Assembly: GCA_002691685.1 (NCBI GenBank)
Contig: NZIQ01000078.1
Coordinates: forward strand, 1-56,639
Length of the DNA stretch: 56,639 nt
Direction: 5' to 3'
From: Flavobacteriaceae bacterium
GTDB taxonomy: Bacteria > Bacteroidota > Bacteroidia > Flavobacteriales > Flavobacteriaceae
Shown: piece after piece, positions 13,178 through 15,142 of the stretch
How the letters are laid out: every line of letters starts with the position of its first letter
How positions within the stretch are numbered: position 1 is the stretch's first letter
Notes under the pieces: generated by a model
Seen by the model: only the letters and a program-made list of their open reading frames with translations
What the model was told of the DNA's origin: nothing
Databases searched by the model: none
Translations under genes and position numbers: made by a program

Positions 13178-13208
13178 AAAAAAAGCCAGCTTAATGCTGG
13201 CTTTTTTT
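13178..13208. terminator. Bidirectional intrinsic terminator
   Basis: A perfect 6-bp stem GCCAGC/GCTGGC with loop TTAAT is flanked by seven A on the left and seven T on the right. It therefore serves both the TPR gene from the left and the NlpC/P60 gene from the right, whose stop codon lies at its edge. Confidence 0.88.
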
Positions 13209-13962
13209 ACACCTCTAAACTCTTTATAACTCTCAAATGGTGTGTGTACTGTTTAGTTTCAGGGTTGAAAATTCCAGTGTGGTCTATGCGGTCAATTCTA
13301 ACTTTACCAAAGGCATGTATGATGTAATTGTTGGGCAGAATGATTCCTACGTGGTGAATGATACCTTCTTTAGTATCAAAAAAGGCCAAGTCACCAGGTT
13401 TTGATTCTTCGATAAAACTCAGAGGTATACCTTGCTCAGATTGTTGTTCAACACTTCGATACAAGACTATATCGCAGTTTTTATAAATCAGCTGCGTAAA
13501 TCCTGAAGAATCCACACCAAAAGTAGATCTTCCGCCTTGCATAAAGGGGGTATTTAATAAAGTCAAGGCCAATTCAGGAATTGATCTGGTTTTAGGAGAT
13601 AACTCAAAATCCTTGTTGTGGTGATTGATGCAGTACATGGCGTCCATTCTTGCTCCGAAAAGAATGGTCCTCAAATTATTAATAGCATCGATCACATAAC
13701 CAATGGGTTCGTCATTATATACAGCCTTGCTAAAATCGTTCAAGACTTGAACATTGTCTTCTGCGATCGGATGGAATTGATTACGGTGAATCCAACCCTT
13801 ACTTTTGTCAAATTGCAACTCAATTAACAAATAATGCTTTCGCACTTCTTTAATTTTGTAGTGGTCTCCATAAAGCATTTGATTTACAACACTTGAATGT
13901 GCATCTGCCTGCTCATATATATTGATGACACTTAAATCACAAATACCGTATTGATTTTTCAA
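13207..13962 (-). CDS. NlpC/P60-family protein with the catalytic Cys replaced by Ser
   Basis: A TTG start at 13962 gives 251 residues beginning LKNQYGICDLSV (the first codon would be read as Met), the usual N-terminus of Flavobacteria NlpC/P60 proteins. An upstream GTG at 14028 would overlap the thiolase gene by 62 bases and is less likely. An SH3-like region (about 1-75) precedes the peptidase domain (about 110-251). The active-site segment reads FGVDSSGFTQL, where the family has D-C-S-G-F, so the nucleophile is Ser152. The usual W before the GG is Q (FMQGG). The two histidines remain (H204 in HHVGI, H216 in IIHAFGKVRID). This suggests a non-catalytic peptidoglycan-binding relative; the loss of activity is inferred. 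The gene lies 4 bases after the thiolase stop. Confidence 0.88.
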   Translation of the reverse strand: MKNQYGICDLSVINIYEQADAHSSVVNQMLYGDHYKIKEVRKHYLLIELQFDKSKGWIHRNQFHPIAEDNVQVLNDFSKAVYNDEPIGYVIDAINNLRTILFGARMDAMYCINHHNKDFELSPKTRSIPELALTLLNTPFMQGGRSTFGVDSSGFTQLIYKNCDIVLYRSVEQQSEQGIPLSFIEESKPGDLAFFDTKEGIIHHVGIILPNNYIIHAFGKVRIDRIDHTGIFNPETKQYTHHLRVIKSLEV

Positions 13963-13966
13963 GGAT

Positions 13967-15142
13967 TTACTTTCTTTCAATGAGCATTGCAGAAGCCCCG
14001 CCTCCACCATTACAAATTCCCGCAACACCGTAAGTGCCTTGATTTTGAATAAGCGTATAAATAAGGGTTACTAAAATTCTAGTCCCTGAGCAGCCAAGAG
14101 GATGCCCTAAAGCTACAGCTCCTCCTCTGGTATTTAATTTTTCTGAAGGAATACTCAATATTTTTTGATTCGCAAGAGCAACAGCAGAAAATGCTTCATT
14201 GACTTCAAAATAATCAACATCTAAGATGTTTAAAGAAGCCTTTTCTAATACCGAGGGAATTGCTTTTGATGGAGCAATAGTAAACCACTTTGGAGCTGTC
14301 GCAGCATCTGCATAGCTATTGATATATGCCAATACAGAAAGACCGAGTTCTTTGGCTTTTTCTTCGCTCATTAGTACAACAGCTGCTGCCCCATCATTAA
14401 TGGTTGATGCATTGGCGGCGGTTACTGTTCCGTCTTTGCTAAAAGCAGCTCTCAAATGAGGTATTTTATCAAACCTCACATTTTGATATTCCTCGTCGTG
14501 ATCGACAATAAGAGGCTCTCCTCTTCGTTGGGGAACACTTACTGGAGCAATTTCATCTTTGAAAGCTCCATTTTTCCATGCTTCAGCTGCTTTTTCATAA
14601 GAGCTAATAGCGAATTCATCTTGAGCTTCTCGACTTAGCCCGTATTTAGTAGCACATTCATCAGCACAGACCCCCATGGCATGGGCGTCGTATGCATCGT
14701 TTAATCCGTCTTCTTGTAATCCGTCTACAAAGGCTTGAGAACCAAATTTTTGTCCTTTACGTAAATAACTATAGTGAGGAATTAGACTCATGTTTTCCAT
14801 GCCTCCTGCTACACAAATCTCATTGTCTCCCAATGCAATAGATTGTGCAGCCCATTGAACTGACTTAAGCCCCGAAGCGCAAACTTTGTTTACGGTAGTA
14901 CAGGGTGTGTTTTCAGGAAGTCCTGCCAAAAGTGCAGATTGTCTTGCTGGAGCTTGTTTACATCCTGCTTGAACAACATGTCCCATGAATACTTCGTCTA
15001 CTTCTTCTGGATTTAGGGTGATTTGTTTTAATGCAGCCTTTATGGCAATTGCACCTAATTCAACTGCTGGAATGCTTGAAAGTTGTCCTAAAAAAGAGCC
15101 TATTGGCGTTCTTTTAGCCGCAACAATAACTACTTTGTGCAT
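13967..15142 (-). CDS. Acetyl-CoA C-acetyltransferase (thiolase)
   Basis: This 391-residue thiolase joins or splits acetyl-CoA units. The acyl-accepting cysteine is C88 in NKVCASGLKSV. The His loop GGAVALGHPLGCSGTRI and the second cysteine in GICNGGGGASAM are in place, and length is standard. The residues agree best with a biosynthetic, acetoacetyl-CoA type thiolase (class II), but a broader fatty-acid role cannot be excluded. It precedes the NlpC/P60 gene closely; no metabolic link between them is evident. Confidence 0.93.
   Translation of the reverse strand: MHKVVIVAAKRTPIGSFLGQLSSIPAVELGAIAIKAALKQITLNPEEVDEVFMGHVVQAGCKQAPARQSALLAGLPENTPCTTVNKVCASGLKSVQWAAQSIALGDNEICVAGGMENMSLIPHYSYLRKGQKFGSQAFVDGLQEDGLNDAYDAHAMGVCADECATKYGLSREAQDEFAISSYEKAAEAWKNGAFKDEIAPVSVPQRRGEPLIVDHDEEYQNVRFDKIPHLRAAFSKDGTVTAANASTINDGAAAVVLMSEEKAKELGLSVLAYINSYADAATAPKWFTIAPSKAIPSVLEKASLNILDVDYFEVNEAFSAVALANQKILSIPSEKLNTRGGAVALGHPLGCSGTRILVTLIYTLIQNQGTYGVAGICNGGGGASAMLIERK

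Follow-up and report, generated by a model that had tools for sequence, protein, structure and literature searches.

In the Flavobacteriaceae, comparison of orthologs shows that a nearly universal NlpC/P60 protein has lost the catalytic cysteine on several independent occasions, and the copies that lack the cysteine are under purifying selection. We think it probable (about 0.68) that this protein is a cytosolic YkfC-type murein-tripeptide peptidase that was repeatedly turned into a pseudoenzyme and has been retained for a function other than catalysis. The substrates of YkfC-type enzymes are murein tripeptides whose L-Ala is free, and these enzymes act downstream of LdcA-type carboxypeptidases (PMC2954226). 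The YkfC of Chlamydia is believed to work in the cytosol, and changing its cysteine to alanine abolishes activity (PMC9928106). One of the putative pseudoenzymes is encoded in the window, by which we mean the whole stretch of 56,639 nucleotides that was analyzed (contig NZIQ01000078.1 of a Flavobacteriaceae bacterium). Its features are listed in Table 1.

Table 1. Features of the putative pseudoenzyme gene and its upstream neighbor, in positions of the window. Residue names with YkfC refer to B. cereus YkfC.
Feature	Position	Strand	Remarks
NlpC/P60 putative pseudo-peptidase gene, YkfC-type ortholog	13207..13962	minus	TTG start (most likely), 251 aa + stop, PF00877 E 3e-15
Codon 152, TCT (Ser), at the position of YkfC catalytic Cys238	13507..13509	minus	AGA on the plus strand
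D-S-S-G-F segment, residues 151-155	13498..13512	minus	
F-M-Q-G-G segment, residues 140-144, Tyr226 -> Phe and Trp228 -> Gln	13531..13545	minus	
Ser54 codon (YkfC Tyr118)	13801..13803	minus	3h41 alignment
Ser170 codon (YkfC Asp256)	13453..13455	minus	3h41 alignment
His204 (YkfC His291)	13351..13353	minus	present in 34/34 non-Cys rows of the family sample
His216 (YkfC His303)	13315..13317	minus	present in 34/34 non-Cys rows of the family sample
L-S-F-I-E-E-S segment (181-187)	13402..13422	minus	L181, S182, F183, E186 conserved in both classes, not in the second YkfC
C-terminal GKVRIDRIDHTGIFN (219-233)	13264..13308	minus	well conserved in both classes; D224, G230, I231 not in the second YkfC
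Acetyl-CoA acyltransferase (thiolase) gene	13967..15142	minus	upstream, same strand; conserved neighbor

The gene lies on the minus strand, and its long open reading frame opens at a GTG within the upstream thiolase gene. Because the orthologs from the genus have a TTG in common, the true start is most likely that TTG (13960-13962), which would give 251 amino acids rather than 273. Nearly all of the other listed orthologs use ATG. By eye, the N-terminus of the protein has no signal sequence, which makes a function at the sacculus improbable, and the protein is presumably cytosolic.

The protein matches Pfam's NLPC_P60 family (PF00877) at 56.5 bits (versus a cutoff of 23), and the SH3 domains in Pfam, including SH3_3, are below their cutoffs. 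The nearest solved fold to an AlphaFold2 model of the protein (pLDDT 93.9 and pTM 0.90, from an alignment of 33 sequences) is YkfC from B. cereus (3h41; Z 25.1, rmsd 2.4, 234 residues), and structures of dipeptidyl-peptidase VI from Bacteroides are next (3npf, 3pvq, and 4r0k; Z 24.5-24.7). Across these four structures, the fold is alike over 234-244 residues (Z 24.5-25.1). The SH3b plus NlpC/P60 architecture is present as well, with a VIA-align Z of 25.1 to 3h41 across residues 4-251. As modeled, the protein has a YkfC-type fold.

For the active site, we use the residue numbers of B. cereus YkfC, which we assigned by counting positions in the alignments to 3h41. The catalytic cysteine of the NlpC/P60 family is replaced by Ser152, and the catalytic histidine and the third polar residue (also a histidine) are present as H204 and H216. 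It had been noticed from the sequence alone that the protein has D-S-S-G-F, with serine for the catalytic cysteine, and also an altered F-M-Q-G-G with both histidines retained. Both observations are confirmed, with TCT at codon 152. In the pocket, Tyr118 is replaced by S54, Tyr226 by F140, Trp228 by Q142, Asp256 by S170, and Ser257 by V171, while Asp237, Ser239, Arg255, His291, and His303 are retained. According to Xu et al. (2010; PMC2954226), the YkfC subfamily is defined by Tyr118 and Asp256. In the window protein, Ser54, in the SH3b part, aligns to residue 118 of 3h41, and Ser170 stands in place of Asp256. In comparison with YkfC, then, the protein retains the histidine pair, Asp237, and Arg255 but has neither the nucleophile nor the two residues that define the subfamily. 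Because both of those residues are missing, its sequence would not qualify it as a YkfC enzyme by the definition of Xu et al., even though it has the YkfC fold.

Of the 59 genomes that comprise the window's own and those of its relatives, 57 have the ortholog (some of these matches are fragments). For the family sample, we used 149 Flavobacteriaceae genomes from 148 genera, all of which are at least 97% complete except for the window's own. The ortholog was present at E 1e-30 in 145 of these, and we read the nucleophile column in all 145 sequences: 111 have Cys, 20 have Ala, 10 have Ser, 2 have Asn, 1 has Gly, and 1 has Asp. The cysteine is therefore gone in 34 of 145 orthologs. (Xu et al., PMC2954226, noted that the Cys/His dyad is absent from about 1% of the 2599 NlpC/P60 sequences that they considered.) On the best tree for the family sample, which was computed without the active-site columns, the Cys/non-Cys state changed at least 12 times, the residue itself changed at least 21 times, and there are 15 maximal groups that are entirely non-Cys. 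A partly overlapping set of 128 orthologs (97 Cys and 31 non-Cys) gave 14 changes; the starred branches by themselves require 4 of these. Many of the inner branches are weak, so the numbers of changes are best-tree figures. In a 30-row clade (SH-aLRT 99) that includes records named Muricauda, Maribacter, Arenibacter, Cellulophaga, and others, along with the window's genus, 23 rows are non-Cys. The other 7 have Cys, and in six of them pocket residues are altered.

The gene's neighborhood is often conserved. A thiolase gene is upstream on the same strand at 95 of 102 orthologous loci (20 of 25 with a non-Cys ortholog); PgpH was seen at 77 of 102 loci and a TPR gene was seen downstream at 73 of 102, with flanks that are often too short to reach them. 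Five loci from the genus (L005-L009), in genomes whose size is about 1.6-1.7 Mb, do not have the thiolase at the site, and there the ortholog adjoins PgpH. Five genomes of the genus have a thiolase elsewhere that is 44-53% identical, and three others have only a 39-40% identical one. The thiolase has moved or diverged in the small genomes, and we do not claim that it was lost. The idea that the thiolase is a required partner is unsupported, as it is not beside the ortholog at the five loci.

The loss of the cysteine goes along with changes in the pocket. In the family sample, Tyr118 is kept in just 3 of the 34 non-Cys rows (versus 106 of the 111 Cys rows), Asp256 in 5 (versus 103), Tyr226 in 11 (versus 109), Ser239 in 16 (versus 110), and Trp228 in 18 (versus 108). 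His291, His303, Asp237, and Arg255 are kept in all 34 non-Cys rows and in all 111 Cys rows. We call a row degenerate if at least one of Cys238, Tyr118, Asp256, Trp228, and Tyr226 is changed. Most of the Cys orthologs retain the YkfC pocket, and 102 of the 145 rows are canonical at these five positions.

Degenerate orthologs tend to occur in genomes with a second YkfC or without LdcA. At a cutoff of E 1e-35, 25 of the 149 genomes in the family sample have a second YkfC, which is about 400 amino acids long. The ten best-matching copies have all nine of the YkfC residues that we checked, and by eye, their N-termini resemble lipoprotein signals. Xu et al. (PMC2954226) describe exported and cytosolic forms of YkfC as well as neighboring ykfB and ykfC genes, including in Gramella forsetii. 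LdcA was not found in 25 of the 149 genomes. Either a second YkfC is present or LdcA is missing in 29 of 34 genomes with non-Cys orthologs, versus 12 of 111 with Cys orthologs; for degeneration, the counts are 36 of 43 degenerate versus 5 of 102 canonical rows. Outside of a relaxed clade in the family-sample tree (27 rows, with support of only 65), at least one of the two conditions is found for 8 of 10 non-Cys versus 9 of 108 Cys orthologs.

Many of these genomes also encode a homolog of dipeptide epimerases (the nearest solved chains are 3iji and 3jva, and 3jva is named Dipeptide Epimerase). The homolog is present in 35 of 43 genomes with degenerate orthologs versus 17 of 102 with canonical ones, and in 24 of the 25 genomes with a second YkfC. 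It is within 3 kb of just 4 of the 25 second YkfC genes, and we do not claim a general ykf operon. At one locus (G017, L150:176-3911), the second YkfC lies between the epimerase homolog and a glycoside hydrolase that resembles beta-N-acetylhexosaminidase; judging from these genes, this is likely a murein-recycling cluster. In five of the 34 non-Cys genomes, LdcA is present and a second YkfC was not found. Four of these five (G121, G171, G216, and G225) have the epimerase homolog, which hints at another, unseen peptidase.

We also counted independent pairs on the best tree with our own script. In the family sample, degeneration was associated with either condition (6.9 pairs for and 0 against, median p 0.016), with the second YkfC alone (6.4 for and 0 against, p 0.031), and with the epimerase homolog (6.6 for and 0 against, p 0.016). 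In our first sample, for which the residues that defined it differed slightly, degeneration had 7.8 pairs for and 0.5 against (p 0.039). For loss of the cysteine, the association with either condition in the family sample was not significant (4.2 for and 0 against, median p 0.125), and the results were similar for the epimerase homolog (3.5 for and 0 against, p 0.125); the first sample gave 5.0 for and 2.7 against (p 0.69). The loss of LdcA alone gave no signal in the independent pairs from either sample, so we rejected it as the sole driver. The treekit test, which uses starred branches, has only 3-4 pairs and no power, and much of the association with redundancy stems from one relaxed clade. 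Overall, the link of a second YkfC or a missing LdcA to degeneration of the pocket is fairly firm, and the link to loss of the cysteine itself is only suggestive.

In the window's own genus (11 draft genomes, G000-G010, that are 75-99% complete), we found neither LdcA (PF02016) nor the second YkfC in any of the 11 genomes. A search with PF00877 found a single match in each of 10 genomes, which was the ortholog, and none in the 11th genome, in which a contig end cuts off the ortholog. Given these gene contents, the genus may be without a competent NlpC/P60 peptidase.

We propose that the ancestral protein was a cytosolic YkfC-type gamma-D-Glu-L-diamino-acid peptidase that acted after LdcA in the recycling of murein tripeptides. 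In the genus, and several times elsewhere, this job would have become unneeded, either because an exported second YkfC assumed it or through loss of the LdcA route. Once selection for peptidase activity had ended, the pocket and then the cysteine would have decayed; we infer this order because altered pockets already occur in nine of the family sample's Cys rows. The resulting protein would no longer be a peptidase and would have been retained, most likely, to bind a partner protein or a small ligand via its invariant parts. The candidates for these parts are the cluster of His291, His303, Asp237, and Arg255, the LSFIEES segment, and the C-terminal VRIDRxDHxGI strands, though the invariant histidines could be structural.

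It is also possible, if somewhat improbable, that the active and inactive copies share a conserved function other than as a peptidase and that the peptidase activity was the dispensable part. The shared function would be carried out by the His291/His303 face along with LSFIEES and VRIDRxDHxGI, for example as a cytosolic regulator that responds to murein status or as a holder of a partner enzyme, and the shift of the peptidase role to the exported lipoprotein YkfC in several lineages would have freed the old enzyme. Seventeen positions are conserved in both the Cys and non-Cys classes without being shared by the second YkfC, and 12 of these ortholog-specific positions lie at 181-186, 193-202, 224-231, and 245-246.

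Rather than having a second function, the non-Cys copies might simply be decaying towards pseudogenes wherever the peptidase is unneeded. This would explain why the loss of the cysteine tracks redundancy. Furthermore, four genomes of the family sample gave no match to the ortholog at E 1e-30, and the second YkfC is present in three of them, so outright loss may occur, and the proposed second function would not be indispensable everywhere. In pairwise comparisons, dN/dS was 0.042-0.105 for nine non-Cys pairs. Of five Cys pairs, one was saturated and the other four gave 0.013-0.047, so the non-Cys values are about twice as high. The constraint on the non-Cys copies is below that on the active copies, yet it is far from neutral: these are divergent pairs, and their values are near those of the neighboring thiolase and TPR genes (0.043-0.093). 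Also, 33 columns are unchanged among the 34 non-Cys rows, against a mean of 9.6 changes per column, and the ortholog was kept in the genomes of ~1.6-1.7 Mb in which the thiolase is no longer in place. These results make simple decay unlikely. The suggestion from the sequence alone that the domain was retained after loss of its nucleophile holds up in this respect, and a non-catalytic role fits best.

We think it quite unlikely that the non-Cys copies are still enzymes, with an altered chemistry or substrate, that use the retained histidine pair with or without a serine. The invariance of His291, His303, Asp237, and Arg255 in all 34 rows, although the surrounding pocket varies, is what such an enzyme might show. 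However, Asp237 and Arg255 are part of a hydrogen-bond network that is common in NlpC/P60 domains (PMC2954226). Also, no single residue replaces the cysteine (it is A, S, N, G, or D), and the pocket differs by lineage, which is unlike the adoption of a new common substrate.

The old pocket might instead bind murein peptides without catalysis, as a sensor or a sink, which has a precedent within the same domain. According to a review (PMC12067865), RipD (Rv1566c) from Mycobacterium tuberculosis is a non-catalytic NlpC/P60 protein that binds peptidoglycan; its triad is Ala-Ser-Glu, and it carries a pentapeptide repeat at the C-terminus. Neither RipD nor the window protein has the cysteine, and their structures are alike over 115 residues (Z 16.3; 4jxb and 4lj1). 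The window protein scores just 12.3 bits against NCBIfam's RipD model (the cutoff is 215), and unlike RipD, the ortholog has an invariant histidine pair and an SH3b-like N-terminal part, and a signal sequence was not seen. The five L-Ala-gamma-D-Glu-binding residues (Tyr118, Tyr226, Trp228, Ser239, and Asp256) are among the columns in which changes in the non-Cys rows most outnumber those in the Cys rows, and four of these five are changed in the window protein, which makes this explanation very unlikely. Menin, which is papain-like and lacks the cysteine, belongs to an unrelated pathway and is an analogy only; some members of its family have the full triad, and human menin, without the cysteine, is a scaffold (PMC10318531).

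The serine itself was probably not derived from cysteine. The nearest ortholog (90% identical) also has TCT for serine, the next (87% identical) has GCT for alanine, and the six other full-length copies from the genus have alanine. No member of the genus with letters at the site has cysteine: the window and one neighbor have serine, and the rest have alanine (one of these copies is a fragment, and another relative's copy ends before the site). Because the codon is GCN in all of the full-length copies from the genus save for the two with TCT, the immediate ancestor probably had alanine (GCT -> TCT) rather than cysteine (TGT -> TCT). So, the serine codon that was reported from the sequence is real, and its proposed origin by a single change from TGT is less likely. 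Nor is serine fixed in a clade, a possibility that had been put forward for checking by alignment; within the genus it is limited to the window and one neighbor, and in the family it is one of five replacements, of which alanine is the commonest. We rejected serine as a working nucleophile given the alanine at the same column at 87% identity, and alanine, asparagine, glycine, and aspartate at the site in other orthologs also argue against it. A one-base sequencing or assembly error at codon 152 might be suspected in a draft assembly (82.5% complete, 92 contigs), but with the same serine codon in the 90% identical ortholog from another genome and alanine in the remaining full-length copies, this is almost certainly not the case.

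NlpC/P60 proteins that are not enzymes, such as RipD, were already known. In the literature that we searched, we did not find a nearly universal ortholog that was recurrently switched off, with an invariant histidine pair and with decay tied to an exported substitute; within that literature, the recurrent conversion of a single ortholog is new. A match to the profile alone would label 34 of the 145 sampled copies as peptidases despite the missing nucleophile. Because a syntenic and nearly universal ortholog was inactivated in parallel, its catalytic residues can be separated from those that are needed for other reasons, which points at a hidden function. The state of the ortholog may also mark where the recycling of murein peptides moved from the cytosol to the envelope or was given up.
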